Source: Heliocidaris erythrogramma (lineage: Eukaryota > Echinodermata > Echinoidea > Camarodonta > Echinometridae). From it: a stretch of DNA of 64,000 nt. The position numbers and the translations under genes were made by a program. Below, in pieces: positions 11,977 through 52,070 of this stretch. Each line of letters opens with the position of its first letter. The stretch's first letter is position 1. The notes beneath the pieces are model-generated. The model worked only from the letters and a program-made list of their open reading frames with translations, made no database searches and had not been told where the DNA came from. Where the stretch lies: assembly GCA_025617745.1 (NCBI GenBank), contig CM046853.1:56753233-56817232 (forward strand), given 5' to 3'.

Positions 11977-12340
11977 CTTGGCGGCTGTCTCTGGGTTGTT
12001 AACTACTTATTTAAAAAAAAATCGAAACAGCAACGCAACTAAAACATGGATACGACAAATTCATGATGATTAACATCTGTCACCAACTTTGCGGTGAAGA
12101 TGCTACAACATTGAGACTAGCTGGCCGAGCTGACTATATAGTAGAAGTGAACAAAATACAAATTTCACAAATTAAAAATTAAGGCCGACTATACTAGCGC
12201 AGGCACAAGCTAGCTATACTAGCGCGCACAGCTCAATGACTTCATGTGCGTATAATGACAAATGCATACAAGAAATGCTATTAGCACGCGCCATACGCAA
12301 GATCATGACGCAAGGCCACGGCGCAAGACCAAGTTATAGA

Positions 12341-16198: not shown

Positions 16199-16460
16199 GG
16201 TGCCGTGGTCTAGTGTATCCGTCACCAGACTGTGGATCATATGGTTCACGGTTCGAATCCTGCCGCAGCGCTAATGGCAAAACAGTCATCTACATTTGTC
16301 ACTCTCCACCCAGGTGAAGTAAATGGGTACCGGTTGGGAGAAATTGCTTAAATGCCTTAGCGCCTTTCATGGCAGCTCGGCTAAATCTGCAGTAATTAAA
16401 GGGCAGAGAGTATATTTGTATAGTAGTTGTGCTATATAAATGGACATACATGTATATTAT
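16199..16460 (+). mobile_element. tRNA-derived SINE
   Basis: Head GGTGCCGTGGTCTAGTGTAT (A box TGGTCTAGTG) and GGTTCGAATCC (B box) form an RNA polymerase III promoter of tRNA origin. Body: CACCCAGGTGAAGTAAATGG, GGTACCGGTTGGGAGAAATT, TTCATGGCAGCTCGGC; tail ends in TATATAAATGG and TATTATT. A tRNA cloverleaf is no longer intact. The inverted counterpart in the right arm is split by the 11.4 kb element. Confidence 0.82.
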
Positions 16461-19525: not shown

Positions 19526-20746
19526 CTCTTTCCTTTTCACCATATCTTCTCAGTTTCGCCTTTTCTCATCTTTTTTGCCTTCCCTCTCTATCTCATACAT
19601 ACACCTTGATCACACATCCTGGTTCATTCACCCCTCCCCTATATGGTTCATTTCATTGATATGTGAAAGGACCTTTATCATGTTCACAGAATAATTTTCA
19701 ATTACATGTATATCTTTCTCACAATCAAGATTTAAGGTACAATAGTTTATACACGTCTATTCAGAAATATGTTTATATTTTTTTACTTTTTAATGAATAT
19801 TTTCTTGCATGCAGAAATGAGGACAGTTTTTAGAGAAGTTTAGACATTGTCTTACTTCTTAAATACACGTTTACATCTGCAGTCATACACTTTTTTCATA
19901 TACTACACTACAATATAGTTCCATCACAGCCGACTTGTCAAGGTCAAATAATATTCTCTTAGTACAAATTATGTACATGCATTAAAAAAAAGAATTTCAA
20001 TCTAAATGTATAATACGTTATTAATTTCAATCCCTTTCCAAGAAGTAAATTATTTGAATTACAATTTAAAGATTATTTACCCACTACACCCCTACAAAGA
20101 AGAAATGACATAAGAAATAAATGACCATCTAATTTCTGTTCAACACACACCAATGACAACAATTTTACTCCTAAAAAACAAAGATAATTTTGACAGTTGT
20201 AAGAACTCTTTAAATGATCCATCTCCTTTTAGGTTGGTACATGTATATTGCATGTTACTATTATTATAAATCGAACTATAAAAAAGGGGCAGGAGGAACA
20301 CACAAAGATCTAATTAGATAGTTTCAAGTCAAGTGAAGTGTTGAATACCGGATTTTCTCAGTAGATAATGAATAAAATAATAATTTACTTGATAATTTAT
20401 AAATTCATAGAATCAGATAAGATTATTATTAGTTTGTGATACACTGCGGGCAGATTAAATGAAGGAGTGGCCCTGGCAGTGCTTATCTTAATATCATTTA
20501 GGGGCCCTGTAATCTCACAAAATAGGCCACACAGAGAAGAGGAAGACCTCCTCACAATAACGAGCTACTATAACAAAATGGCTGCATGTGACTACAACAT
20601 TTGAAATGGGGAGGGGGTGGATAAAATGGTCAAGATATAATTGAAGAACTTTAAACTCCTGTTCAGTCATTCTAATTATAATATACATGTATGTCCATTT
20701 ATATAGCGCAACTACTATACAAATATACTCTCTGCCCTTCAATTAC
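19400..20746 (-). repeat. Right palindrome arm, inner part
   Basis: Reverse complement of about 16,400-18,150 in the left arm, with scattered substitutions. Ends at 20,746 where the 11.4 kb element interrupts the SINE tail. Confidence 0.85.
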
Positions 20747-20756
20747 ACTGTTAATC

Positions 20757-21270
20757 CTGCTGTGTAAAATTTTAAACAACTTGTGTAAATTTTTAAACAA
20801 CCCGCTGTGATATATATGAACCTATCAACTGTTGTTTAAGAACTTAAACAACCCCGGTTGTGTAAATTTTTAAATAGCGGTTGTTTAAATTTCTTTCACA
20901 ATTATTGTGTAAAATTCAATTAAAACAACGGTTGTGTAAATATTTTACACATATATTGTTTAAATATACATTTAAACAACCCAGTTCTGTAATGATTTTA
21001 CACATATATTGTGTAAATATCAATTTAAACAACCCGGTTGTGTAAATATTTTACACATATATTGTTTAAATGTCAATTTAAACAACCCAGTTGTGTAATG
21101 GTTTTACACATATATTGTGTAAATATCAATTTAAACAACCCAGTTGTGTAGGTGTTTTTTCACAAAAGTTGATGAATACTTAAACATTAAATGTTGAAAT
21201 TATACACAACTAGATGTGTAAGATATTTACACAATATATGTGTAAAACCATTACACAACTGGGTTGGTGT
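20757..21270. repeat. Subterminal repeat array of the 11.4-kb element
   Basis: Units of about 53 bases starting TTTAAACAACCC(A/G)GTTGTG and containing TTTTACACATATATTG recur at about 20,975, 21,023, 21,076 and 21,129; degenerate units precede them and an inverted run (ACACAACTAGATGTGTAAG to CACAACTGGG) follows. Smaller inverted pieces appear at the other end (31,960-32,115). TGTGTAA is shared with the TIR, as expected for transposase-binding sites. Confidence 0.8.
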
Positions 21271-22300
21271 CACAAATACACATACACACATACATACAAA
21301 CAATATGAAGATTTTGCATGTAATCTCATTTATTTTCCTTCAGAAATTGCTTTTTAACATTTACAAACGTATTTACATGTGTGAAAACAATAGTTGATCC
21401 CTACTGCATAGCACCAAAAACAATAGTTGATCCCATACTGCATGGCACCATTTCATTATTCTCCCAAAATGGCATATAAAGTTCCTGCCATGGAGAAACA
21501 TGTGAAATGAAGATTTGTATAGTCTTTTGCATTACTTCTTTCCCCTCATGTCTCTTATACCTTTGATACCTTGGAAATTTTTAACTATTGTATGGATTTC
21601 TTATTCCTACTAATATGTAGCTGTTTAAGACTATCTTATTACAGACCTCAATAAACACAATACAACATATAGGAGATAGAAAAATGCATAAAAACACCAG
21701 TTAAATAAAATCTCGAAATTTCAGGATTCTCAAATTATCATATATGCAAATATATAAGTTAAAATCAAATTACAGGAAATTTATCTTGTACATCACATTA
21801 ATTATATTTGATCAAAAGATAAAAAAAATCCAGAGCAAATAATTATTACACGTCCAAGTAGATCCTTGTCATTTGATTTGAGAATTGTTGGTCACACGAT
21901 ATGTAATAAGTACTCCATTCAACGAACTGTGCACTGTGGTTTAATTTTTGTGTGCAAGGTGCTTCCATTTGGTACCATACTGTGACAAAGATTTACTTTG
22001 AAAAATTAGAAAAAAAAACATTTGTTTTTTACAATGGTACAAATATTTTAATCGGTTGATATATATTTAATGTTCCATTCAAGTCAACTTTACTTTGTGG
22101 ATTGGAACTTTCAAAATCTGTCACCTCATGAAAATATTTGTACCACTGATTTCATGAACATTCATTATTTGTATACCACTTTAGTCAAATGCTGAAACAA
22201 CTATATTACAAAGATTTTCAGAAAATTTGCATGAGGTCATTAAATTGATTGTCAGAAAATAAGTAAAAACTAGATGGATATTCAACCAAACGAGGTCCAA

Positions 22301-22935
22301 ATATATGCCTCCGCGTAGTGCATGATCTATAAAATTTGACCTTAAATATAGGGGGAAAAAGTTTGTCTTATCATACTCTACCCTCATACAAAGTTTGAAG
22401 TTCATATCTCCATTAGTATGCAACATATGGCATAATAAAAAAAACATTTTTTTACAACATAATGAACTACATGACTTTTGACCTTGTGACCCCAAACTAT
22501 TTGTTCACAATTTTGTATTCACATTACCATCATACCAAGTTATTAGAAGTTCATAAGTCCATTAGTAGGTAAAATATAGCATAAAAACCATATTTTTACA
22601 AAATATTGACCTCTGTGACTTTTAACCTCGTGACCCCCAAAATATTTCTACAAATTTGTATTCACATAAACTACCATCATACCAAGTTAGAAGTTGATGT
22701 CAAATAGTAAGTAAGATACCGCATAAAAAAACATATTTTCACAAAATGACCTCTGTGACCATTGACATTTGACCCCATGACCCCCAAATCCAATCAAACT
22801 ATTGTCCACCCAGGACAAGTTTCATGTCAAACCATCATACGGTTTTTGAGATATCAACAAAAACAAAACGGACGGACGGACAGACGACCCAAAAACATAA
22901 TGCCTCCAGCCACTTCGTTGATGGAGGCATAAACA
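22301..22935. mobile_element. ATGCCTCC...GGAGGCAT repeat
   Basis: Starts TATGCCTCCGCGTAGTGCAT and ends near TGATGGAGGCATAA. Inside, three loosely repeated lines of the form TTGACCT(TGT)GACCCC and a GGACGGACGGACAGACGACC tail. It is non-coding and of a common marine-invertebrate type. Confidence 0.65.
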
Positions 22936-23184
22936 AAAAGCATGTAAATTGATTATCAGAAAATAAGCATAAAAGTACAAGCATGTACTTCTTCACATAT
23001 TTACTCTATAACCTTACTAATTTTTTTACGTCAAACAGACCAGCTGCACCAAGATCCTATATCCACCACCACCACAAGCTTGCAAAATAGCCAAAGAACA
23101 TCAGGGTCAAGGTCTTTACATATTTTGTACCCCCAAAACAATTGAGATTACATACATCACTCAGTATAGCAACATTCAGCTCCA

Positions 23185-23400
23185 TTGTATTAACCCTAAA
23201 ACATTATTGGGGGGGGGGGGGGGGGGGGGTCTGATAGGTTGAATCAACCCCCCTCATTTCACGCAATAAATCCATAACGTGATACAGTCAACGGCCACGT
23301 CTGAAGGGGGGTTGATTTGATTCCCCCCAACTCCCCAGGTCATAGAAAGACCAAAAAAGCAACCAAAATGTGCAATAGCATTTCATAAAATTAATCTATA
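23185..23400. repeat. TTAACCCT-family remnant
   Basis: TTAACCCTAAAACATTATTG followed by a G run, then CAACCCCCCTCATTTCACGC and AAATCCATAACGTGATAC, which parallels the fuller copy at 24,184. Confidence 0.5.
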
Positions 23401-24183
23401 GTATTTCATAAATTTCAACATCAACACCATGTTTAACTTCTAGATACATGTAAATTTAGCACAGGAAGTATATGAAAACACGAATAAATTTCAATTTAGA
23501 ACTTCAAATGTTGATACAAAAACAACTTGTTATCAATGTTGACACTTGACACATCTGCATTATGTAAACTAGATTTGATTTACGAACTCAACAATGTAAA
23601 ATGTACAAACACATTCATGTTAAGAACAATTATATGAAGGCCTCATTGAAAAATTGTACAAGTATAAAATGTGATTTCACACTGATCACTACTACGTATG
23701 AACATACAATGTAGTTTACACACATTCTTTCAAGTTAAAATTTTCCAATGAACTATTTGTAAGAGAATTTATCCTATAAAGCATCAAATTAAGCCCTTAT
23801 CATACAGAAAATGATGCAATTTTCTCATTAGCAACACTTTATTTTTCAATGAAACTACACTCGCAAACACGTATCAGTGAAGTAACTTTCAGCTATATAC
23901 ATTTTCTTATTTATACCATGTTAATGGGAGGGTTCCCCGACATCGGTATTGCTCAATACTATGGGCATGGTTGTGAAACAACTTGCCAAGTGTGTAAGCG
24001 CACTGCTTGTATTTTCCAATGGAGAGGCACATACCACACGCTTCGTGCGCGCCTTTAAATAGCGTCCTCTTGAATGTCGGGATCCATTCCCTTTAAAGCA
24101 CAGAGATAGTTTTGGTAAAACATTTTTTAGAATAACAGTTTTTCTGTACTTTCCCAACTATTTCTAAACAACTTGGCTTTAGT

Positions 24184-24198
24184 TTAACCCTATTCAGC

Positions 24199-24237
<39 letters not shown>

Positions 24238-24750
24238 CTGAATCAGTCCCCCTAGACGTTTCGCACGATAAATCCACAACGCGAAATGCTACCGCCGCGA
24301 GACTTCATGACTTTTTTCTTTCATTCATCGCGCAACTTTTGAGACCAAATTCAGCGCGCCCGGGCGTAAGGTCGCGAAGCTTATTTGTTTGTTGTATTTT
24401 AAAGAGATGTGTGAATAAACTTTGAACTTAAACTTTGAACTTTGAAGTGCATCAAACTAAAGAAATCTGCCCAAAATCAGAAGGCTTGGAGTTGTTTCAA
24501 GTAATTTATAAAGGAAAGAATACATTTTTGCATATATTAGCATAATTTAACTCATAAAATAAACAAAAGAAACAAAGACAAATCTAACAATACAATCTTG
24601 TAGAGTACATGTGCCTCTACCAACATGCAAATTTTCGCGGCGATCGCGCGATCGACGGCCGAGATCTTAGGGGGTGCTGAATCAGCTGAATCAGCCCCCC
24701 CCCCCCCCGGCTAGTCAACCTCCAAAATAGCCCGGGCAGAATAGGGTTAA
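24184..24750. mobile_element. MITE with TTAACCCTATTC ends
   Basis: Left end TTAACCCTATTCAGCCCGGG and right end CCCGGGCAGAATAGGGTTAA are near-perfect inverses. Interior: a 37-G run, GTTTCGCACGATAAATCC, GCGCAACTTTTGAGACC. TTAA at both ends suggests TTAA-targeting insertion. Partial relatives at 26,655, 28,115 and inverted at 28,430-28,600 show several rounds inside the larger element. Confidence 0.78.
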
Positions 24751-26062
24751 ACCTAAGTTAGATCATAAATTCACAACTATCCCTTGTAAAGTATAGCAGA
24801 TAACATGCATAGCCTTGTTTGGAGGCCCTCCAATTAAAAAATAATTCAATGGTATTCAGAGCAAACTCTTACTACTCGAAGAATTGCATTCATAATCCTG
24901 ATCAATTATGCAAATTTCAGCAAAGAAAATGTTAAGAAGTTTTTTTTTTCACATTTATCAAACTATCTTTGTGCTTCAAAGGTAAAGTCCAAGGTAAAAA
25001 TCACCTCGGCCTTTTTTAATTCTTACAGAGTGTGACAAATTTTCATTAGTTAAGGGGAAATTTCTTGAAGTGGCGAAGAATCTTTGGAGATTCACTAACG
25101 TTTTATAGATGTATGTTTGCGAAAATTGGGTATATGCCCCTCATTTGAGACATTAAGCGATATGTTAGCAATATTTTACATGTAGTTGACGATTTTTAGC
25201 ACTTGATCATTTGTTAATGTTAGTGATATCTTCTGTGAAGATTATAGTAGCAACTACTAGTATTTCCAAATTCTTTGCCACTATTTGTAAATATTTGGGA
25301 CCTTTTGCAAACTCTTGCAAAAGTACTAGGTGAATCTGGTCACATGAAAAACCAAAGAAGGATGGGCAAACTCCAGATTTCTTCTGATCAGTGTCGAAAG
25401 AGGTTTCGATATGAAAAAAATGAACATACTTATAAAGGGTTTTTCTTATTTTTGTTATGCAAAATCATTCAAAAAAGTAGCATAATTCCCAGGAGGTGCA
25501 GTCAGTATATATTGGTGTACACATGCCCATCAATAAAAAAAGTAAAAAGGGCTACTTTTTCAGCGATGTACGCATAATGTGCATTACATGTTTAAGGGGT
25601 CCAAAAACTGAGATTTTCTGCAAAAAGTGGTCCTTTAGAAGGTTCAGAGCAAACAAGTTCAAGGATTAAATTTTGATATTCTGAGTCAACCTGTTTTAGC
25701 GGATTGATTTTGCCAAGAAGTCGGTGGCTACATCCTCCTTTAGAGGTGCTTTTTCATCAAGGTTCATTGCGGTTTTAGAGGGTAATTTTCAAACTCAGGG
25801 AAGTGCATGGGTACACTAAAATATAGTGACAACAATCAAAGTAAAATGTACCCTAACATGTAGCCCTGCATTTAAATTGTTACGTTGTATTTTGTATTAA
25901 AGCCCACAGCACAAAGTGATTTTTTTAAAAGATATTGTAATCATTCTTTGGGATCTGACGAAGGTTGATGTATATTTTCTATTGAAATCAGTGTGAAATT
26001 CAAATTTGAAAATTTTGCCCAAAGCTCTGTTAGAGATTTTGGTCCGGACTTGCCATGTAAGA
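24751..26062. other. Non-coding DNA 3' of the SAMD3-like gene
   Basis: AT-rich, no repeats or exons recognised. Several short ORFs on both strands lack family resemblance. Confidence 0.4.
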
Positions 26063-26392
26063 TTACTCCTGATTCTCAATGTTCCCGAGCCACGTACGGA
26101 AATTAAGGAGACCAACTCCACTCAGGGTACCTGGTGGCATTTGGTAGACCAGGTGCTGAAGCATCTGCCACACAGGAGAGCATTGAGCTTGATAGTCTAT
26201 GTCCAGTATGTACGTCAGCTTGAAACATACATCCACGGCTTGTGTAATGGAGGTGCATTCGACTGTGTTGCGTTCGATGATCACAAAAACCTGATTTGGT
26301 TTCCATCGTGAGCCCCCAATAATCAGTAGAAAAGGCTGGGGTCTTTCCTTCCCATCCAGCGCTTGAAGGTAATGGTCAAGGGAAGTTCTTTC
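26063..26392 (-). CDS. SAMD3-like terminal exon
   Basis: Acceptor ACACAG|, phase 0, then ERTSLDHYLQALDGKERPQP, FLLIIGGSRWKPNQVFVIIE, AVDVCFKLTYILDIDYQAQC and WQMLQHLVYQMPPG, ending at a stop at 26,063. This is the best conserved part of the gene. Confidence 0.75.
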   Translation of the reverse strand, partial: ERTSLDHYLQALDGKERPQPFLLIIGGSRWKPNQVFVIIERNTVECTSITQAVDVCFKLTYILDIDYQAQCSPVWQMLQHLVYQMPPGTLSGVGLLNFRTWLGNIENQE

Positions 26393-27118
26393 CTGTGTTA
26401 CAAGAGAATAGAGACGAATTATGCTAAAAAAAGGTCTGATAAATTCTGTGAAAAAGAAAAAACAATTGGTAAAAACAAAGAAATACATAAGAATTTACCA
26501 AACAATACAAAATGAAATATTTTGTGCACAAAATCATTTTAAAATACAAAGGGATTTTATACTTAAAGCGAGGAGATAGTTTTGGTAAATATCGGAAAAC
26601 GTAATGGAAAGGTATAGCTTCCAATGTAGTTAACATGCAAGGATATATCATAACTTAACCCTATCTGGACTGGGGGGGGGGGGGCTGATTTGCCCCCCCC
26701 CCCGACGTTTCGCGCAATAAGTCTGCAACGCGAAATGCTGCAGCCACAAGATTTTATGACTTTTTTCTTACACTTATCGCGCAACTTTTGAGACCATTTT
26801 GGCACGCTCGTGTGTAAGGTTGCGAAGCCACGCCCGTTCGAAAATGTGATTAGCCCAAATGTGATTAGCCTAAATGGTGTTAGGCTAACTGGTGATTAGA
26901 CCAAGTGCAAATAGCTCAACCGATAATTCACCGAATAGATTTTAAGCAATACACAAAATACAATGAAGATTGGGCAATTTTCTTCTTTTTTTTGGGGGGG
27001 GGGGCGTTGTCACTCAGAACCATACTTAAACATACAACATGAGGTATTCTGCAAATTTAATGAACCTTGTCCTCTGACTTTTTGTCCTACAGACTCCATA
27101 TCTGAATACAAAACTTAC

Positions 27119-27237
27119 AGGTTGGAAATCTATGAAGGACTTCAAGGCGGCCTGTACTGAACATTTTCCACGCATTCCCTTGCTACGTCCAGCGAATAAT
27201 GTTGGCAATAGGCTGAAAGCTAATGTCTGACATTCAC
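27119..27237 (-). CDS. SAMD3-like exon 5
   Basis: Phase 1 in, 0 out. Encodes GECQTLAFSLLPTLFAGRSK, then CSVQAALKSFIDFQP. LLP.LF and ALKSFID are family positions. Confidence 0.7.
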
Positions 27238-27857
27238 CTGTTGATTAAATTGGAATGTAAAAAACAAATATATATTACAAGTACATACTATACAAATAAT
27301 GGATGTTCATGAGTTCGATGGTAGAAAATTATTGCATGAACTGAAAGATTTGTAATGTCCTATTGAACGACAGGGCTGCACTCTCCAAAATTTAGGGAGG
27401 GGGGTACATGCCCCTTGTGCCCCCCCCCCCCCTTGGATCCAGCCCTGCTAACAAGTGAAGCCAAGCATGCCTGACCACCCACTATCCATGGCATGCTGCG
27501 TGACTATTCTTTTGTGTGCATACATAGTAATTACATACCTATAGTTTTTGAAATAGCACTGGCTTTGAGATGTACCAGTAAAAAAAGAACAGAAAAATCC
27601 TGGAATCTATGCAGTAAACAAGAAACAAAGTTGGTTATGTTATAAAATGTCTTTCATTCACATGTAGCTTCATTGTTAAATGTTCCCCTGTGTGTGTTCG
27701 TGTTGAGTCTACTAATGATTTTTTTATTTGAAGGGCCATATTTAATCCTAATGCCACATACTGCACACAGACTTTACAACAAGCTTTCTTTGAAAAATAC
27801 TGCTTCAGTTAGGATACTATTTTTCATCAAATGTTGAAAAAGTTTATGGTAACGTAC

Positions 27858-28017
27858 CATCAGACAACTCTGACTTGTCAACATCAGGAATGTGTCCACT
27901 CCACCCCTTTTCAATGTCTTCTGCGTAGTCAAAGATGCGTTTGGCCATACGTGGCCATACTGCATACAGATTCCCTTCGTTACCCATACTGATTGCTAGA
28001 CGAAAGTCTTCTTGAAT
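27858..28017 (-). CDS. SAMD3-like exon 4
   Basis: Phase 0 in, 1 out. Encodes IQEDFRLAISMGNEGNLYAV, WPRMAKRIFDYAEDIEKGW and a short acidic end. EDF..I and W..+..I..YA match the central helix block of SAMD3-like proteins. Confidence 0.7.
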
Positions 28018-28964
28018 CTAAAATAAAAATGAAAGATGGATAATTATCTACCAGTAATCATTTAACATGAACAAGTTAATGAGTATTTGCATACAATGCG
28101 TGATAAGAACGTCCTCGACTCCTCGCCATCTGTTCTGCCATCTATGTATATTGGCACAATAAGTTCACAACACGAAATGTTACCAGCGCAAGAATTCACA
28201 ACTTTTTTTTTTCATCGCACAACTTTTGAGAACAAAATTAGCATACCCGCATGTACATGTAAGATCGCGAAGCCATGCTAAGTGTTCTTGGCAAGAAATT
28301 ATTCCTTATCATTTTGATTAGTTTTAGTCAAAATAATGCAATTTATGTGAATTTATTTCAAAATCAATATTTACATTGGATTTGTACAATAAATCAAGGT
28401 TTCGAGCAATTTGGATGAATTTTTTTATCGGGCGTGGCTTCGCAACCTTACGCGCAGGCGCGCTAATATTGGTCTCGAAATTTGTGCGTTGAGTGAAAGA
28501 AAAGACATGGAATCTCGCGGAGGTAGCATTTCGCGTTACGGACTTATCGCACAAATCCACTCTAATATCAAGGCAATTTAGCATTTTCGCAGGGTTAAAG
28601 ACTGGTGAGGAGTGTTCTTTTGAGCAGAAATTGCTACATGGAAGGCAGATTTCATATGAAAAGAAAGTTACGTATTAACTTAACCGAAAAAATCTTTCAA
28701 TTCTGGGTGCTCAAACAAGGCATAAATTTTGAGAAAACTTTCTGTCAGCAGCAATATTCCAGCTCGTCCGGGCGCTCCTGTCTGTTCGGGCTATGAAGTG
28801 TCCGTTATGGCGCAAAGCCGCATGATTTGACTGCTGCAGGTTCTGAGCGTTAATCATAACGCTCCTATTTTTAATCAGTGATTTCTCCATATCAGATGAA
28901 AGTTCTACAGATTTTTCTCATTTGTAAGTTTTGAGGTGTAAATATTTTGAAAGCAGTTTTAATA

Positions 28965-29117
28965 CATGAAATGAAACTTTTGCATTTTTGACCACTACAC
29001 TCTCCACCAGTACCTTTAATTTATAAAATTATTTGCTAATTTTAATGATCTGCAATTTGTCATTAAAGGTACTGGTGCAGAGTGTGCTGGTCAAAAGTGC
29101 AAAAGTTTCATTTCATG
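28965..29117. repeat. Foldback repeat in SAMD3-like intron
   Basis: GAAATGAAACTTTTGCATTT ... CACCAGTACCTTTAAT on the left mirrors ATTAAAGGTACTGGTG ... GCAAAAGTTTCATTTCATGA on the right, about 55 bases each with few mismatches and a 40-base loop. Confidence 0.8.
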
Positions 29118-29331
29118 AGATAAAATTGCCACCAAAATGTTCAAGCGCCCTAAAAATTAATAAACAATGACACAAATTTTGAGAACTTTCCTCCACTATG
29201 AAGATATCTATGATTAAAAAGAAGAGTGTTACACTAACGCTCGGCGTTAACGAGTCCCCGATCAGATTTTCATGAGCTGCAGAGAGACAGTTTTTCAATT
29301 TATTAGGAATGTTTGAGGGACCAGAACTACA

Positions 29332-29545
29332 AGATACCCTTAACTCTCACTTAAGAGCAGGGTGGGTATAGTGTTGTTTCATCAATCTGAATGAGCTCCA
29401 TCTTGGTTAGTGATGTTTTCATTCATAGCAAGGCAATAGGGAAGAATACTATGAATATTTACTTCATTATCTCATCTTGAACTAAAGGGGGAATGATCAG
29501 AAATCTTCAATTTTCTTGTTAAGTGAGAATTAAGGGTATTCTCAG
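29332..29545. repeat. Short MITE-like inverted repeat
   Basis: GATACCCTTAACTCTCACTTAA at the left end mirrors TTAAGTGAGAATTAAGGGTATTC at the right; about 214 bases, non-coding. Confidence 0.65.
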
Positions 29546-29678
29546 GCAAATTATTATACATGTATATTTTTCCTTTCAACTCCTCTAGAGTACGTTTTAC
29601 ACAACTGAACACTCTTCCTTGAATTCTAACCAGCTGTTCCCTGCAATAATGAAGGTAGGCAAAAGCATAAAAGCTTAC

Positions 29679-29845
29679 AATTCCTGGATCGAGCAGTCGA
29701 GGATATCTGTCGATGATCTGTGCTGTTGTCGGGTTGCTATCAGACCGTATTCATGTGTAACGTGACTTGCATGTTTCTGCCATAACCTCTTGGACTTTTC
29801 CTTTTGGGCCTGTATTATATTTCATCCATTCAATCTTTTCATTTA
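29679..29845 (-). pseudogene. SAMD3-like exon 3 with in-frame TGA
   Basis: Reads LNEKIEWMKYNTGPKGKVQE, VMAETCKSRYT, stop, then IRSDSNPTTAQIIDRYPRLL. The frame is the same on both sides, so a single base change explains the stop; TGA from CGA is the simplest path. YPRLLD is the family hallmark. Phase 1 in, 0 out. Confidence 0.7.
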
Positions 29846-30802
29846 CTGGAATGAAAGAAAAACAAAGTCATGTTCAATTTTTGACATATTTCCCTGAATA
29901 AAATAAAAACTACATGTACAATTATGTCAATTCTGAGAAAAATAAAACAATTAGGGGGAGTTGATTTTTTTTCAGGGGGGGGGGGGGGTGAATTTGGATG
30001 AAGTGTTTTAGATGAAGAAAATGTTTATCTCATTTACAAGAGCTGTAATGCATTGGGGTGACAAATATTGCAAGAGTGGCTTGCCATAACAGGCAAATTA
30101 GGCCTGTACAGTTTTTAGCTAGACTATATAGTTCATGATGCAAATTGCATAAAAAATGAAGGTTTTCCACAATCTGCCCGGTCTTCCGTCTACAAACATA
30201 AATGAATTTAAATAAATTTTCTTCAGAAGTAGAGATTGTAAATCTCATTCCTACAAAAGGATGGCTTCATGAAAATTATTTCCACTCAATTCTCCCTACA
30301 ACAAATACCGCTTATATAAATACCTGGGCCCCCATTACATGAAACTTACCATTAGTTTCTAAATTAGTTTCTAATGGTAACTACCATGATTTAAATTTGG
30401 CTTCACAGCCAATCAGCATCAAGGATTCTAAATGTTGCACCTAATTTGAAGAATTATGGTTAAGAAAGAGCTACATGGTCCAGCAGTAAGGCTTTTATGC
30501 AATGGGGCCCTGACATCAGCAATCAATATGAACATTTAATAGGGACCCCGATTTTATCCTACATGTAAAAAAATAAGATTGATATCAGACAGTAAAATAA
30601 TATAAAAGTCAAATCTTTTGAACAAACACATGCTAAATTGAGCATTGCCTACTTGATATTAGCTAATTATTATTATATGCCATATGGAGAATTTCACATG
30701 TATTCAAATTGAAATTTGTTGAGAATACAAAATCAATCACATTGGTCATGAATAAATAACTCCAATTCACGATTACATTTTGAAATTGATCATAATTCTT
30801 AC

Positions 30803-30995
30803 GTTCATCTTCGGACATATTGGGCATTTCATTAACTGCTGCCCTCTTCTTTTCCCGAGGCCTCTGTTGATCTGCAGGTTTGGCTGGCTTGGCTGGCTTC
30901 ATTTGTTGAAAGTGCTGCATCCTCACATACCGCAACCGCTCCTCAAGGCTGCCGCTGGCAGGATGGTGCTTTTTGCCTGCTACGAACCATTGCTC
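30803..30995 (-). CDS. SAMD3-like exon 2
   Basis: After TTTCAG|, reads EQWFVAGKKHHPASGSLEER, then a PAKPAKPADQQRPREKKR linker and NEMPNMSEDE. Donor GAAC|GTAAGA, phase 1 out. A basic, proline-rich linker follows SAM in this family. Confidence 0.6.
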
Positions 30996-31809
30996 CTGAA
31001 ATTAGAAAATGTGCAAATCAATATCACATTTTGCAACTTACATGTATCTAAACAACAGCCTGATGGGCTAACCGATCACCCAAATATCAATCATTTCCCT
31101 TTAAATTACGCATGATGCAGTGCTCGACATTAGCAGTGGCCCTGTGGCCCAGGGCCACCAAAAATTAGCTTCTGGCCACCAGATTTATCAAAAATATTGA
31201 TTCCGGTGGACAGGGTTAGGCCTAGGATTTAATTTTTTATGTCAAAGTGTAAATTGGTGGGGTATTCTAAACTTGTTCCAATACATGTAAGTTAAACTGT
31301 AGTAAATGTGCTTTCCGATGATTGTTTTTATTTGTTGTGATAATTAATTGTTGTTTGTTTACAAAATCGGCGATTAAACTTTTCGTGCGCGAAATTCCAT
31401 GCCGCTATCATATACCGATAATGTTATGTACAAAGTAAATGTCCGAATTAATAAACATTGAATATTAAATGGTCATATTAAATGGTTACAAAGACGCTCG
31501 TAGGCTTCGAGCTAGGCTAAGTTAACCAACTACGCTGTAGCCCCAGCGCTTGCGCTGGGTTCTCGCGTCCTGCGCCGGGGCTAGACCAGGCTAAGAACAC
31601 AGTACGTACGAGCTCCACGTACTTACACACACACACACACACTCGCCCATCACTCGGTGTTGCGAGTCTTGCGACGCGATCAGCACATTTGAAGCACATT
31701 TTTGTACCCCCGTTCTCATGCAGTTCAGTATAAAATGTAGGTTAAGTACAATCCACGCAATCTATACAACATTTTCCATCATAAAAAATACTTCCAGAAA
31801 TTAACTCAC

Positions 31810-31873
31810 CTTCGAATTTGCTGATGTTGGCTTCAAAGCCCCATTCACGGAGCCGCTCGATGACCGGTTCCAT
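31810..31873 (-). CDS. SAMD3-like exon 1 (SAM start)
   Basis: ATG at 31,873; MEPVIERLREWGFEANISKF is the first helix of a SAM domain. Donor AAG|GTGAGT, phase 1. The remaining SAM helices are not found in the 800 bases before the next exon. Confidence 0.65.
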
Positions 31874-32131
31874 TTTGCAAATTTGATTATAAAAAAAAAA
31901 GTCTGTCTAACTTTTATGAACGGTGATTGGCTGTGTCTAGTCACGTGGAATTTTTCTTTACACAACAATTGTTGACGGGGCCGCTTTGGCGGGATTTTAA
32001 AAAATCATAATGCAAAAACACGAACTTTTATGTTTACACAACCGGTTGTTTACCCAAAGATCGGGCGCATTAAACATGGTTGTGCAAAAAAAATACACAA
32101 CCTTTCTTACACAGCGTTTCCGTTACACAGC

Positions 32132-34596
32132 AGTCTAACAGTGTAGCGCAGATTTAGCCGAGCCGCCATGAAAGGCGCAAAGGCATTTAAGCAATTTCTC
32201 CCAACCGGTACCCATTTACTTCACCTGGGTGGAGAGTGACAAATGTAGATGACTGTTTTGCCATTAACGCTGCGGCAGGATTCGAACCGTGAACCATATT
32301 ATGATCCACAGTCTGGTGACGCCATACACTAGACCACGACACCTCAACATGCATATTATACTTGAATCCAGATATGATTTTAATATGAAGAAATGGGGTA
32401 ACCTCGCTATTCATAAGGACCGCTTATTCATAATGCGTGACTAAATGAAAAACGGTCCTTCTAAATAGACAAATTACCATTATTCATAACTATTCATAAG
32501 AACTGCTATTCATAACGTGTGTTAAAATTAATATAGTGGTTTTCTATGAATAGCTGTCCTTTTGAATAGCGAGCGGACCCAGAAGAGATATATTTTATGT
32601 TGATCAAAGCAGGGGGCTATTTCACAGAAGAGCTGAAGTAGAAATCCATTAAATTCTGTTGAAGGAAAAGAGGAAAGATTTTAGAAAATAGCATCCATTG
32701 TGTATTTGATAATTAAACAAGCAACAATTAGAATTAAAATAAAACCCTGAAACTTCGAGCTTCCTATTAACACAGTCAGCATCAACTCTTTATATAAAAT
32801 GGAATAATAAGTGTGAATTCTCAAAAGTATTTAAAGAGGAAAAATGTTGGACACATAAAATTTTCAAGGCTATTCAAAAGCAACCAAATTAGTAAAGTCT
32901 CAAAAAATTCAGTTGGTATGTTTATGTGAAAAAAAAATATGTATACCTAGATTGTATTGAGTACTAAAAAACAACCAGGGGCGTCGATTATGCAATGGCA
33001 GTTGCCCCCCCCCCCCCGGATAATATTGAGAGGGCAAATATATCATTTTGCCCCCCCCCCCCCCCGTAACCGTGGATAAGCTGGTAATTAAGAGGCGTTG
33101 AAAAAATCATATATAGTACTATTAGGCTGTTCTGCCCCCCCCCCCCAATCCAAAAACGGATCGACACCCCTGATAGCAATCTTACTCTTACAGCATAGAC
33201 CTACCATGCAAAACTGGAGCAGCTAGTAAGTATTTATTTGTTCCTCTCAGAATTTGTCTTCATTCTCAGCGTAAGCCTTCATCTTCATCATCATCTGTAA
33301 AATAGATGAAGGAGAGTCATGTAGAGAAGCATTATGTATTAAGAAAAAAAAATCAGATACGCTCATCCTCACCCTCGTGATCTTTTCAAATAAATACTAA
33401 CTGCATGTACAATCCATCCTAAAATATTTGTGGATTTTAATAAAAGTGGAATGTATTCACCCATCTTATTTTGTTTTGTTTCTGTTTGCATTAATTAATG
33501 AAATGTTTAATATAATAATTAAGGGGGACTAAAAATTCTATTTATACTGACATCACACTGAACATTCCCTAAAGATCTCATAATTGATTTAGACACTAAA
33601 ACAGCTAATTTAATATTACACTGAAGAAAAAAAATAAAACATCATGCTTGCCTTTAAGTTTGACCTTGTCTCAAGTTTGTGAAAAGTTACAAGTTACAAA
33701 TACAATTACCATTATGGTTAACATTAGGGCCTAACTTTGTTAATGTTAGGCCTTAGTTAGACCTATTTTGATCTAACTTATATTATTAGGCAAACCCGGA
33801 GAATAGGGGCCGGTCTGCGCGTGCTGTATTCATTTGTGTGCAAGCAAAATTAATGTAGCCCAGCGCGGCGGCGGCGACGATCTTCTACCAGATTCAGCGA
33901 TGAAACATTTGCGAGTTTGACTCCATTTCTGGCTAAAATCGTTATGATTTTCATATCAAACAACTACAAATCTGAAAGCCAAGAGGACAGTATGATTATC
34001 ACAGCATTAATTACTTGATTTAAAATATATTTGGAAGTTGTTTTGAACTTGATTATCATGTTTGCCTCTGCCGATCTCCGCACTGTAAAAGTTGGCACGC
34101 GCACGCCGACCTGCCCCTATTTTGTGGGTTTGCCCGATATTATTTATAGAAAAATATATCGATGATGATTATCACGGCAAGAATTCCTTATGTCCCAGCC
34201 ACCTTATTTTTTCATTTTAGTTTAGTGTCCGGTCATCCGAATCTGATCCCCCATCCATCATCATGATCATCATCGCTCCATCCTGCATCCGAACATTTTT
34301 TTTTAAATTTAAGTAACAAATTAACGTTACATGCATGCTAACACTAGTAACAAACAGCTCTCTCTATTTGTATTACACCGGATTGCCAAATTTGTTTCAT
34401 CATCATTTCAAATAAGTTAATCTAAATTTATAACTAAAATCAAACCTTGATTGATCCATCGTCCATCTCTGACTCTGAGTCTATAGGCGGTCAGATCTAG
34501 AGAGAGAACCACAGAACTCCTAAATCTGTGGATAGAACTGCAAAGTGAAATAATGTATACACGGTATATTTGCACACGGTACGGACATGAATCGAA
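32132..34596 (-). repeat. Right palindrome arm, outer part
   Basis: Reverse complement of 12,774-16,400 without the two left-only insertions. Begins inside the SINE copy (32,132-32,347) that the element split and ends next to the retroelement's TTTCAAG tail. It holds its own G/C-tract expansion at 33,005-33,150. No gene. Confidence 0.87.
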
Positions 34597-34818: not shown

Positions 34819-36213
34819 TTACATAGTCTGTGTGATAAAAAGTATGAGTTTACACAAACTAATCAATTCCTTACCCATTGCTTGGATCAGCAATTTAAAT
34901 TTGAGAGTGGACGGATTCTGATAATAATACTTTTTGATTAACAATTTTCTCTTTTCTTTATAATAATCACATTCCAGTATATAGTGAAACCCGTCACCTA
35001 CAGCATTCTTTTCACATTTTTCACACTTTCTTTGATCCAGGGGTATACTCATATAGCAGCCAGAAACAACAGAAAGTTTGCTGAGGTTTCTACATCTGAA
35101 TCTAGTGTATGTCATTCGGGGGACAAAATATTCAAATACTTTTCATAACAAAATTCATCCTTAAATAATCTATAATTTATACAACTACTTGAGTTATTAA
35201 CATCGAAATTCCATTCTTGCTTCTTTTGGTCAGACAGGGTTTGCGTCACTACAGTTTTTAGCCACGAAAAATTTATACCATCACACTGATTAAGCCAAAT
35301 TTATCCAATATCTAATTTATTTAGTGTTGATTCAATAAACTGCATCCAGTTACACTTTACTAATTCATCTTTATGCATAGCAAGCATAAGCTTATATACA
35401 ATTGTAGACAATTTGGGACTGTCTTTTAAAACTATTTTACTCCAAAAAGTAACAACCCTTGATTTTATAATGCAAGACAAAGGCAATCTTCCTAATTCTC
35501 CATAGACCATATTTGAATTAGTGCATCTTTTAACCTTTAAAATTATTTTGCAAAACTGAAGATGCAGTTTTTCAATAAGATTCAAGTTCGAAAAACCCCA
35601 AATTTCACAACCATAAAGTATAATTGGAATTACCATAGCATCAAAAATTTTAAGTTGTGTGTCAATATCTAAACACATAGTCCTGCCCCTTTTTTAAGAT
35701 TTCGAACATTGCTCTACGTCCAATATCATACAGTCTTTTAATAGCTAGATTAAATGAACCATTATAATTAAAGACAATACCTAAGTAGGCATAGTTGAAT
35801 ACAACTTCTAAAGTTTGATCACCATAATAAATGACTGGTTTATTTTTAATCTTTCCTCTTGAAAAGACCATAACTTTTGTCTTTGCACTATTTATTTGAA
35901 GACCCCAAGTATCACAATATTCTTTCATACCAGTCAAAGCACTCTGTAACTGTTCCTTACTTTAAGCTAAGATTATAGTATCATCAGCATAAAGCACTAC
36001 AAAAATATTCAAATACATAACAGTATCATCACTTTCTAACAAATTGTACACACTTTCTCTAAGATTAGGTAACCCATACTTCTTATACAAGAACATTTCA
36101 AGGTCACTCAAAAAGATTGCAAACAGAAGAGGTGACAAATTTTCTCCTTGTCTTACACCAGCAAGACAATTAAAATAACTTGACTTGATCCCATATGAAA
36201 AACTATAGTGCAT
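34819..36213 (-). pseudogene. Reverse transcriptase C-terminal half, fragmented
   Basis: 36,213-35,950 has AGVRQGENLSPLLFAIFLSD (RT block) and VVLYADDTIILA with the catalytic YADD. After a TAA stop, reading continues as GLQINSAKTKVMVFSRGKIK and FNYAYLGIVFNYNG. A frameshift leads to TQLKIFDAMVIPIILYGCEI at 35,678. A second stop precedes the final part with a CEKCEKN..FHYILECDYY zinc-ribbon-like C-x2-C...H-x4-C motif (35,115-34,819). Confidence 0.85.
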
Positions 36214-37043
36214 TTGCTCAGCGCACTTCGCACCGCATCCTATAACACGGGAAAACTTGCCTCAGTTTGTGACACTGTCCATAAAATCACACGATTGCTT
36301 TAAAACAAATTGATATTTGACATCATTTCGCCCGGATAAATAATCTTCACACTTTTTCCTATTATGTAGTGTTAATAACCAGTAGATTACTTGTGAGGAA
36401 ACTACTGCACATTTTGGTTTAAAAACAGAGTTTAAGTTCAAATCAGACCTTTCCCTATGGCAGTGAGAGCATTTTCCTCTAATTTGACCTTACATTGCCT
36501 CATTCAATCGAGTGGGAATTCCGCACAAGATGATTTATTGAAACATTTCGCATACCAAATTGCGGCTAATGTCATCCTCCAACTAGTGATCTAAAAATAA
36601 TTCTGATTGGTGGACGGGAATTTGGTGCCTTTTGCCTGTTCATTCACAAATGGCCTCTTATTTGTTGTCACATTATTCACGCACTGTCTAACATCTATTG
36701 GATTGTGCCATTCTATCATAGGGGAACTCGATTTGTATACAGTGAAAAATAATTCGTCTAACAACAATGATAGATTGTGAGATGCGTGTAGGCTTATACA
36801 AGTAAGAGAGAAAAGAGAATGATATAAGAAACGAATGAAAATGTCAAAAGCCGTGATGGACTATATTGTGAAGTTGTTCGTTTTGAAGTGGTAACTACAA
36901 CGCCACTCAAAGTGCAAATAAACCCCCTGTTTATAAAGTGAACGCGCCCGATGACTCATATGCATGACGGAGATCGCTGGGTGTCAAGGGAGGTCAGGGA
37001 TTGCCCGCTCGAGAAGTATATGCGGCGAATCTGATGAAAGTAG
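36212..37043. mobile_element. Insertion in the RT coding region
   Basis: About 0.83 kb of unrelated AT-rich DNA lies between RT pieces that belong together, starting near GCTCAGCGCACTTCGCACC and ending near GATGAAAGTAGTTCAT. No clear terminal repeats; its nature is unknown. Confidence 0.55.
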
Positions 37044-37420
37044 TTCATATGATTCAATTTAACACATAACTTTGCCTGTTTATACATATTAAAGACAATG
37101 TTAAATAGTTTACCATTAATATTATTGCTTAAAAGCTTTTTCCATAGATTTACTCTGTCCACACTATCAAACGCTTTTCTATAATCGATAAAGGCACAAA
37201 ACAGATTTTTCCTTTGGCCTAAATAAAAATCTAGTAAAAGTTTGAATGTGAGTATGTGATCTAATGTTGAATAATCTTTACGAAATCCAGCAATAAAATT
37301 CTCAAAATCGTCTGAAAGTAATTTTGACTTCAAACCACATACATTTAACAAACAAAAATGCAATTTAGATTCAGTAGAATAACAATGATCAACATTAGTA
37401 TCAACGGCTTGATTAACCAA
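36956..37420 (-). pseudogene. Endonuclease-RT deletion junction
   Basis: Opens with the start of an APE-type endonuclease, then changes without a break into RT motifs FCAFIDYRKAFDSVDRVNLW (YRKAFDS is RT block 2/A). It fails after LCVKLNHMNYFHQI where another sequence is inserted. Confidence 0.8.
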
Positions 37421-37474
37421 AATGTTCGTAACAGACTCAACTTCATGTTGAGCACTACATCTTCCTGCGTTGTC

Positions 37475-38548
37475 CTATGGTGCCATGAGATAGTTTGACA
37501 GACCTAGCTTTGCAAGAGTTTCCTGGTCAACATCAATGCCCACCTTGAATAGGTCATCAGGATTCTCTACGCATGAGCGCTTCTTTTCCCTAAACACAAC
37601 AATGCGGCCGTTGATTGTGTGTGCGTGCTTGTACTCCTTTTTTTCCTTGACAAGCTTCAAGAGCTTCATCCTTAGAGGCGTTAGATCTTCATTCACATAG
37701 ATTTTTCCACCTGCGACATCTTTAAGCTTCTTTTTGGCCCTCATGACTTCCTCCTTTTTTATTCGCGTGGTAAAGCGACACAGCACTTGCTTGTGATTGC
37801 CTCCTCCAACACTGTGGCAAGCAACTATATCAGCCTTTGACAACTCCACCCCGACATCATTTGCCAGCTTGCACATCTGCTCCATAAGGACTGCAGTGTC
37901 GGCCCCATCCGGGATGTCCAATCCGGACACTCTAATGCTCTCCCTCCTTGAGTATTGTTCCAGCTTGTCAGCCTCATAGCGAGCTAGTAGACCAGGGCAG
38001 CGTTTCATCAAACGGTCATAAGTACAAGTTCGCCGACATCCCATTGAATCGCGTGTATTAAAATTAACATGCGTTTCAATGGGATGTCGGCGAACTTTGA
38101 TTGATTGATTGATTCATTGATTGATTGATTGATTTTATTTGCCAAGCATTCAGAACATAATAAATTTGTACAAAATGATAGTAGAATAACAAATTAGCTT
38201 AAAATTAACTTGTACTTACGACGGTTTGATGAAACGATGCCCAGATCTCTGCACTGATGCTGCGATACGATCGACCTTCTCATCCAGCTTCTCCATAACA
38301 GTGAAGAAAAGTTCAAGTGCCTTATTTACAGCAGTGATCAGGTCACTCTTGATATGCTTTAACACAGCTTCAGCAATTTTTTTGCCTTTGGCACTAAGAT
38401 CACAATTTCCCAGATTCACAACAGCCTCATCAATTGCATCATCTACAAATTCCTTTGCTGATGATATGACCGATTCATCCAGTGACAGGTCCATTTTTTG
38501 TCTTTTCTCTTTCATTTTTTGACTCTTAGACTTGGGTGTGCTTGCCAT
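37475..38548 (-). pseudogene. Retrotransposon ORF1, interrupted
   Basis: Two pieces. 38,548-38,216: MASTPKSKSQKMKEKRQKMD and a helical segment ending QRSGHRFIKPS. 38,044-37,475: DKLEQYSRRESIRVSGLDIP, KADIVACHSVGGG, YVNEDLTPLRMKLLKLVKEK and TINGRIVVFREKK, the RRM/C-terminal pattern of L1/CR1 ORF1 RNA-binding proteins. Between them lies 170 bases of foreign sequence with a GATT microsatellite and an inverted repeat. Confidence 0.82.
38005..38248. repeat. Nested inverted repeats in ORF1
   Basis: Outer pair: CGTTTCATCAAACGGTCATA (38,005) mirrors the end at 38,248 over about 29 bases with two mismatches. Inner hairpin: GTTCGCCGACATCCCATTGA (38,028) mirrors TCAATGGGATGTCGGCGAAC ending at 38,096. 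Between lies (GATT)n at 38,097-38,136 and the probable 3' end of another retroposon. Confidence 0.75.
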
Positions 38549-38560
38549 AGTTCCGCTATG

Positions 38561-39750
38561 CCTATATGATGACTCGTTGACATTGATTGTTCAAGTGCCC
38601 TTTTGATTGCCGAGTGAATAAGTTCTTCTGCCATGATTATGATCTCAGTCAAATAAAACGTTCAAACTTTACAATTTAATGGAAACCAAAGAAATATGCA
38701 AATGCTCACTAACTCAGACATACGTGTACAAATCGACGAATCTTGCATTTGGAGGTCCGTATTCGATGATCACACACAGTACAGTAGTCAGTACTCTAAT
38801 ACATCCACGTCTGAATTTATACCTTCGAACCTTTCTTACATTGATATTCATATTTGCAGTTTTCTTCCTTGGAATTATGGGTGCAAAAATTGACCTTCCA
38901 TAATAATGGTGATCAAAGGACCCTGTTCAGGCATGGTGCAAATAGACATGGGGGGGGGGGGGGGGGCACTGCCTTTACAAGGTCGACATCATTACTCGTA
39001 CACAAAGCTTGTACATGTAAAAAGGGTTGTCTTTCATTGCTGGGTAATATATGTGCGTACAGTAAAGGTTTGAAGGTATAAATTCAACAGCAAAAGTTAT
39101 CTTTCAAAAGTTATTTGTTTTCAAGTTAGAGCATCTGATTTCTAGTGTGTGGAGGTAACACAATGCAACAAGCGCGTTCTACAAACAAACCAAGAAGATC
39201 AAGAATGCCAACCAGCAGATTACTTCCAGCTGATTGGTATAGTCTAATGATCCAAACTGCAATACTTAGTTCATGGATGAAATCGTTTGGTGAGAGGAAA
39301 AAGAACTCGATATCATAACAAAAACATGGATAGCTACTGTTCAAATGTCATGACAATATGATTATTTGGTAGAAATTAATAAAAACTTTGCATTTTTCAT
39401 CATCTTTGAGGTAAAGTTGTTTTTGGTGAAGGAAAAAGTTTTGTACGCTATAGACTAGTCGTCCCCGATCAACAACCATGTCCAGAGACCGCCTCCCCCA
39501 ACTCGCCAGGGTTGTTTGACCAATCAGGGACAAGAATGTTTTGATTGATGCCTAGGATTTCCAGGATTCAAAAGTATTGTACTGGACTCTTTGTTGGGTG
39601 GTGTTGAGACGGGTTGAGAGGCCTTGTACCATGTCTCCCTCTATGTTGGATTTCGGGTATATAGATTCTCACTCAAAGAGGCCAGACTGGACGAATACAA
39701 GTGCAGAATCGAAGCATTATCAGGACGACTCACGCAAGACTATCACCCTG
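38561..39750. other. Non-coding DNA
   Basis: Only a G run at 38,951-38,967 stands out. ORFs on both strands are short and unfamiliar. Confidence 0.4.
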
Positions 39751-51018: not shown

Positions 51019-51458
51019 TTTCTAGTTTCTTCTTAATATTACTATTAAGTATTACTTAACTTAGGCTTTTCGTGCAGTAGAATCGAGAGCTAAATCCCTT
51101 AGTTTAAACTAAGGCAGTGGCTATTCTTAAAGGCCAAGTCCACCCTAACAAAAAGTTGATTTGAATAAATAGAGAAAAATCCAACAAGCATAACACTGAA
51201 AATTTCATCAAAATAGGATGTAAAATAAAGTTATTGTATTTTAAAGTTTTGCTTAATGTCGCAAAACAGTTATATGCACATCTTGGTCAGTATGCAAATG
51301 AGGGAACCAGTGACGTCACCCACTCACTATTTCTTTTGTATATTATTACATGAAATACGAAATAATTTTATTTTTCTAGTTTCTTCTTAATATTACTATT
51401 AAGTATTACTTAACTTGGGCTTTTCGTGCAGTTTAAACTAAGGCAGTGGCTATTCTTA
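51019..51458. repeat. Tandem duplication including a truncated MITE
   Basis: TTTCTAGTTTCTTCTTAATA to CACTTTTGTA-like sequence occurs at 51,019-51,370 and again from 51,371, with few differences. Each copy includes AGGCAGTGGCTATTCTTAAA and the MITE's left arm. Only the second copy continues into a full MITE. Confidence 0.85.
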
Positions 51459-52063
51459 AAGGCCAAGTCCACCCTAACAAAAAGTTGATTTGAATAAATA
51501 GAGAAAAATCCAACAAGCATAACACTGAAAATTTCATCAAAATAGGATGTAAAATAAAGTTATTGTATTTTAAAGTTTTGCTTAATGTCGCAAAACAGTT
51601 ATATATGCACATCTTGGTCAGTATGCAAATGAGGGAACCAGTGACGTCACCCACTCACTATTTCTTTTGTATTTTATTACATGAAATACGAAATATTTTT
51701 ATTTTTCCTTGTTATAATGTGAAACAAGGTTTGATTCCTCGCTGAACATGTGTAATTGCCATTGTTGCAACCATACACAATTCAATGGGAGCTTCCAAAT
51801 TGTGAAATCTGCAGAAATTAAAATATTCTATATTTCACATAATAAAATACAAAAGAAATAGTGAGTGGGTGACGTCACTGGTTCCCTCATTTGCATACTG
51901 AGCAGGATGTGCATATAACTGTTTTGCGAAATTAAGCGAAACTTTTAAATACCATAACTTTCTTATTTTACATCCTATTTTGATGAAATTTTCAGTTTTA
52001 TGCTTGTTGGATTTTTCTCTATTTATTCAAATCAACTTTTTGTTGGGGTGGACTTGGCCTTTA
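51457..52063. mobile_element. MITE with ~200-bp terminal inverted repeats
   Basis: TTAAAGGCCAAGTCCACCCT at the left mirrors GGTGGACTTGGCCTTTAA at the right. Arms also share GTTGATTTGAATAAATAGAG, TATGCAAATGAGGGAACCAG and GTGACGTCACCCACTCACTA. About 607 bases, no ORF. I recognise it as a frequent sea-urchin-type repeat. Confidence 0.9.
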
Positions 52064-52070
52064 AACTAAA

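Follow-up and report, generated by a model that had tools for sequence, protein, structure and literature searches.

An 11,398-bp element in the 64,000-nucleotide stretch of Heliocidaris erythrogramma DNA analysed here (the window; assembly GCA_025617745.1, contig CM046853.1, positions 56,753,233 to 56,817,232) is very probably a non-autonomous derivative, shortened by internal deletion, of a CMC-type (EnSpm/CACTA-like) cut-and-paste transposon 24.4 kb long, whose two genes, for a transposase and for a SAMD3-like protein, lie on one strand. The two-gene make-up of this EnSpm/CMC element is seen in the gene models of a full-length copy in the host genome, C15, and in the co-location of relatives of the two genes across that genome. 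The gene for the SAMD3-like protein seems to belong to the transposon itself, as its second gene, and not to be a captured host gene. Its exons presumably resemble those of vertebrate SAMD3, from which we take the label.

The element occupies positions 20746-32143 of the window, with TA on either flank. When the two flanks are joined in silico, they align to the other arm of a palindrome (16638-16161, minus strand), where the insert is absent at about position 16391. The two TAs and the alignment of the joined flanks through the site confirm that the insertion is real and that its empty site is kept in the other arm, as an earlier note on this DNA had proposed; the ends given there, 20747 and 32131, are corrected here to 20746 and 32143. 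The palindrome is large (window 12841-34509, with arms of about 4-5 kb that are 87-96% identical in blocks and a spacer of about 1.2 kb) and holds the element in its right arm. Divergence is greater between its arms than among the element copies, consistent with a palindrome that predates the insertion. We also note a short interspersed repeat, about 78-84% identical, that occurs three times inside the element (24225-24380, 26672-26828 and 28429-28547), perhaps as nested insertions.

The left end of the element, CACTGTTAATCCTGCTGTGTAA, stands opposite the right end, CACTGTTAGACTGCTGTGTAA (complement), and the two match over about 21 bases. The termini read CACTGTTA..TAACAGTG, in agreement with the 5'-CA..TG-3' ends of CMC elements and the CAC..GTG ends of EnSpm. 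The 21-base right terminus, allowing at most three mismatches, has one match in the window versus none in 100 shuffles; the left end is not matched by this search because it is one base longer. The subterminal richness in TGTGTAA and AACAACC that the earlier note described is borne out, as the terminal 450 bases hold these words at about 64-fold and 55-fold, respectively, the frequency found elsewhere in the window. The left side of the element also has a 53-bp tandem array (20880-21158).

Across the host genome (1.06 Gb in 26 contigs), at least nineteen left ends, including that of the window element, were found at 97-100% identity (40 of the 90 candidates were scored), and nine of the nineteen, again with the window's among them, are identical over 354 bp. 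Sequences were compared for the 18 copies besides the window's and for two places at 75% identity. The left flanks of these 18 copies show no mutual similarity at an expectation value (E) of 1e-10. Both ends were read in 14 copies (twelve further copies, the window's and C15, with the shifted end of C6 read individually), and twelve of the 14 have matching 2-bp duplications, within the short 2-5 bp range of CMC target duplications: eight TA, three CA and one CG. The exceptions are C18, in which the two sides are unequal, and C16, which is without its first bases. TA is a preferred target, not a required one, in view of the three CA and one CG duplications. A Tc1/mariner assignment, under which TA is always duplicated, is ruled out by the CA/CA and CG/CG copies. 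An alignment of 14 copies over a 2.5-kb block has 47 variable columns, 41 of which are changes in a single copy, as fits a recent burst. The similarity of one copy, C19, is confined to 533 bases of the left end. The window copy belongs to a set of about nineteen cut-and-paste transposon copies that are nearly identical and were recently mobile. Beyond these, a related end, CACTGTTAAAACGCTGTGTAA, occurs at C21:34131460 and C21:34991887 (L028 and L027). The pair C21a/C21b was initially read as two insertions of a related family; its left flanks are common over 399 of 399 bases, so it was counted as one locus and looks like a segmental duplication. At C21b the relative of the second gene's exon 6 is damaged.

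Copy C15 is 24,375 bp long, has TA/TA flanks and retains its right terminus. Compared with the window element, its first 10,468 bases are 99.2% identical, about 13 kb of extra sequence follows, and the similarity then resumes. Copy C16 has the same deletion junction as the window copy (31209|31210), and in both the deletion also removes the 5' exons of the second gene. Seventeen copies, with the window's among them, sort into six internal-deletion junctions, one of which is common to ten copies, and the transposase exon is removed by each of the six. The transposase frame is found by tblastn in C15 alone among the compared copies, and a single place in the host genome matches the C15 transposase at 100% (47 of 140 candidates scored). 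The catalytic DDE region is deleted in the window copy, and a Pfam search of 123 open frames of the window element gave nothing better than E 0.025. The earlier statement that the element has no recognisable transposase is thus correct for the window copy, by Pfam and by tblastn, and incorrect for the family, since C15 keeps a DDE transposase.

The transposase model of C15 joins exon 1 in phase to a 2.75-kb exon, giving 936 amino acids with no stop. The protein combines a SAM-like domain, two C2H2-like fingers (assigned by eye and below the Pfam cut-off) and a DDE catalytic part. Residues D408, D502, C522, C525, H728, H732 and E752 are conserved in C15 and in two other families (39% and 30% identical), and all three have C(2)C and H(3-4)H between the second D and the last E. 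A DDE domain with these motifs is the signature of EnSpm, Mirage, Chapaev and Transib (PMC12730594; this and the other papers are cited from excerpts of their text). The plant-type CACTA model PF02992 (Transposase_21) does not score over the cut-off. The N-terminus has no Pfam SAM match; in a comparison with PDB, five of seven matches at E<1 resemble SAM-domain proteins (atherin twice, ANKS6, bicaudal C and SAMD1), with a best E of 0.28, which by itself makes the SAM assignment a weak one. A SAM half-exon that had previously been placed in one gene with the SAMD3-like exons belongs to the transposase in the C15 model, so that two genes had been merged. We additionally observe six transposase loci of near-equal score (C2:47792888, C9:40165, C21:21522137, C10:14793237, C7:2164127 and C2:61024390) that are 39% identical to C15, all with open frames of 826 codons; this family may have been recently active.

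The second gene of C15 has the orientation of the transposase and is situated in the interval from the transposase stop to the left end. Its model, predicted from sequence and with a first exon of our own choice, has eight exons with consistent phases and encodes 443 amino acids counted from the ATG of exon EA, giving the element a second protein besides its transposase, as TnpA is in Spm. The window copy retains the last five of these exons on the minus strand, with phase-consistent junctions, and is without EA, EB and EC. The spliced gene recognised in the earlier note is real in that the phases of its five exons agree, yet it has an in-frame stop and its 5' exons are missing. Both the transposase gene and the second gene are broken in the window copy. 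Among the 19 copies, exons E2-E3 survive in three (the window copy, C15 and C16), E4 in 17, with a partial exon in C6, and E6 in 18. C15 alone has a complete second gene, and the other 18 copies have an incomplete one; the gene is therefore not selectively kept by the deleted copies, which argues against a cargo role there. No relative of exon 6 was confirmed in viral contigs, where two pattern matches only were obtained, and P0002 has no sequence match in PDB up to E 10. A predicted fold of exon 6 alone had a mean predicted local distance difference test score (pLDDT) of 55.9 and was not used. No literature linking SAMD3-like genes to EnSpm/CACTA elements was found, as judged mostly from paper listings; in excerpt, one paper mentions samd3 solely as the gene next to a fish sex marker (PMC11258905).

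The association of the two genes extends to distant families. The transposase query gave 49 matches, merged into 42 loci, and exon 6 gave 130 matches, merged into 124 loci. A same-strand relative of exon 6 lies within 25 kb of 21 of the 42 transposase loci (18 of 42 within 15 kb), and an opposite-strand relative lies within 25 kb of none. Random placement gave a mean of 0.11 and a maximum of 2 in 2000 trials, under a uniform model that ignores transposon clustering; the strand contrast is independent of the model. Relatives of the second gene adjoin, on the same strand and within 25 kb, transposases that are only 28-46% identical to that of C15. The identities of both proteins also rise together (Spearman 0.65, p 0.008) over 15 family rows, a hand selection of the same-strand pairs found within 40 kb, with equal-score copies collapsed, C4:20897654 omitted and the self-pair included. 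Given exon 6 in 18 of 19 family copies and same-strand relatives near 21 of 42 transposase loci, the SAMD3-like gene looks like a transposon gene, and the central proposal of the earlier note, that it is part of a transposon, is well supported. The earlier suggestion that this gene recurs in such elements is supported by the same two counts, and its casting as the mobilisation protein of a transposase-free element is not. We also looked in the window element's family for full-length copies that have a DDE transposase and no SAMD3-like gene; the one full-length copy has both.

Sequence comparison of exon 6 points to constraint on the encoded protein. Between the window copy and a 77%-identical relative on C12, the proportions of synonymous (pS) and nonsynonymous (pN) differences are 0.79 and 0.13, and five other relatives with open frames give pS 0.71-0.86 and pN 0.38-0.57. 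Synonymous sites are saturated or nearly so, and we therefore use the contrast and not the ratio. The contrast indicates that the last exon of the second gene is under long purifying selection between families.

Several observations weigh against a two-gene element. No Pfam model scores over the cut-off for the transposase or the second protein (DUF4218 reaches E 0.033-0.064). Among the young copies, 5 of 609 exon sites and 42 of 1943 intron sites vary (p 0.037), a value inflated by clustered changes and too weak to lean on. Co-location is a distance between loci, with termini read in the window element's family only, and two genes separated by more than about 15 kb may not belong to a single element. 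Half of the transposase loci (21/42) have no second-gene relative found within 25 kb, and no transposase was detected within 25 kb of 101 of the 124 exon-6 loci or within 40 kb of 98 (16 of the window element's own family and 82 outside it). Widening the range to 40 kb gives 24 same-strand transposase loci and a single pair on opposite strands. The second gene is upstream, not downstream, of the transposase in several of the most distant families. Only one of 21 distant left-end matches has exon 6 of the second gene within 25 kb, when all 130 exon-6 matches are considered. Finally, copy C9a of the window element's family lies near a transposase of another family, a nearness that is probably due to chance. 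Deleted copies and limited sensitivity may explain the unpaired loci.

The alternative that the SAMD3-like gene is a captured host gene, carried as a passenger without a role in transposition, could draw on the exon-6 loci for which no transposase was detected within 25 kb, and on the capacity of CMC elements to bear extra genes, such as TET/JBP in fungi (PMC12730594). One recent capture would not, however, give relatives beside such diverged transposases together with identities that rise in parallel, and in C15 the gene comes after the transposase stop and before the left end, with the same orientation; we regard a capture as very unlikely. A transposase-free mobile unit with the SAMD3-like protein as its recombinase, which the earlier note allowed, agrees with the window copy taken by itself. 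In the window element's family it is refuted by C15, whose DDE transposase has all the signature residues, and it also conflicts with the loss of an intact second gene from 18 of 19 copies, leaving it practically no probability.

Two further alternatives concern the organisation and function of the second gene. Both genes might form one alternatively spliced unit in which exon 1 joins either the transposase exon or the downstream exons, as in the single, alternatively spliced unit of plant Spm (PMC1636069). In favour of this, the exons share one strand, the transposase exon is upstream of those of the second gene, and EA could be joined in phase 0 to an exon upstream of it. Yet EA has its own ATG, and a direct join of exon 1 (ending in phase 1) to EA (beginning in phase 0) would lose the frame. 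We consider such a unit rather unlikely. Slightly less likely again is that the second protein counters silencing, by opening or demethylating the element, instead of contributing to cleavage and pairing of the ends. This would parallel the reactivation of a methylated promoter by TnpA of Spm (PMC1636069) and the TET/JBP dioxygenases of fungal CMC elements (PMC12730594), but Pfam recognises no domain in the 443-amino-acid protein, and its sequence does not separate this role from a binding one.

For the two-gene CMC element, the comparison with maize suggests a mechanism. Maize Spm needs both the TnpD transposase and TnpA, which recognises the subterminal repeats, and action in trans is possible (PMC2613891, PMC1636069). 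The element described here has the same parts (short termini, dense subterminal arrays, a DDE transposase with a second gene on its strand, and many deleted copies), and on this basis we propose that the second protein may act like plant TnpA. The intact element encodes the SAM-like, C2H2-like and DDE transposase and the SAMD3-like protein, both on one strand. The transposase would cut at the CACTG termini. The second protein would bind the subterminal TGTGTAA/AACAACC arrays and, in the manner of TnpA in maize Spm, might assist in pairing the ends or protect the element from silencing. The mobility of deleted copies, the window's among them, would depend entirely on proteins made by a full copy.

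It is conceivable, though we would not yet favour it, that the multicopy SAMD3-like proteins of animals are mainly the TnpA-like second protein of CMC transposons, and that single-copy SAMD3-type host genes were domesticated from it. If so, a CACTA system that uses two proteins, as in plants, would also exist in animals. The main reading already makes a probable transposon component of a gene family that is multicopy and had no explanation, so that gene counts, 'expansions' and expression changes of such genes could be re-read. In the recent-looking CACTA-type system described here, with one apparently complete copy and many deleted ones, it can be tested whether a second protein is needed, as it is in maize.

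Table 1. Features of the element and its target site in the window.
Feature	Position	Strand	Remarks
Empty target site	16386..16396	minus	other palindrome arm, without insert
Left TA	20744..20745		2-bp target duplication
Whole element	20746..32143	no strand	11,398 bp; non-autonomous, internally deleted copy (very probable)
Left terminal inverted repeat	20746..20767	plus	CACTGTTA...GCTGTGTAA
Left subterminal zone	20761..21260		TGTGTAA/TTACACA and AACAACC words, 53-bp tandem array
Exon E6 (P0001)	26063..26392	minus	last second-gene exon, with stop
Exon E5	27119..27237	minus	second gene
Exon E4	27858..28017	minus	second gene
Exon E3	29679..29845	minus	second gene; in-frame stop in window copy, open in C15 and C16
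Exon E2	30803..30995	minus	second gene; fourth of eight exons in C15
Deletion junction	31209..31210		13-kb internal deletion relative to C15; 4-base microhomology ACAG
First exon of SAM-transposase gene	31809..31872	minus	first half of SAM-like domain; partner exon deleted in window copy
Right subterminal zone	31958..32131		TTACACA words
Right terminal inverted repeat	32123..32143	minus	
Right TA	32144..32145		2-bp target duplication

Elsewhere in the window, broken open frames on the minus strand at 34822-38590 resemble, as judged by eye, a non-LTR (long terminal repeat) retrotransposon, with a YADD motif near 36000. A lysine-rich frame of 256 codons with KKxKKKVK-like repeats lies at 11239-12006 (minus strand), and a cluster of direct and inverted repeats, with units of 60-280 bp that are up to about 98% identical, at 51019-52064.

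Among known systems, SmTRC1 and other animal CACTA-like elements share the animal CACTA type, 2-bp direct repeats and a CXXC motif; SmTRC1 differs in its length of 4.5 kb and its CCC terminal core, and the excerpted text names no SAMD3-like gene (PMC1636069). ESTA, a fungal EnSpm-like element of the CMCT group, also often duplicates TA (PMC12730594), whereas four of the twelve matching duplications here are CA or CG. Maize En/Spm (TnpA, TnpD) and soybean Tgmt* similarly have two element-encoded proteins, a long element, asymmetric subterminal repeats and deletion derivatives (PMC2613891, PMC1636069). The termini here are CACTG and not CACTA, and the 2-bp duplication contrasts with the 3-bp duplication of the 20.5-kb Tgmt* (PMC2613891, PMC1636069). 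The second protein is likened to TnpA by this list of parts, and it matches no Pfam family. With EnSpm/CACTA elements of the CMC group in general, the element shares CAC..GTG termini, short duplications, subterminal repeat arrays, a DDE domain with C(2)C and H(3)H, and internally deleted derivatives that outnumber the full-length copy. It differs from them in having no Pfam Transposase_21 match, in the SAM-like domain and C2H2-like fingers that precede the catalytic part, and in its SAMD3-like second gene.

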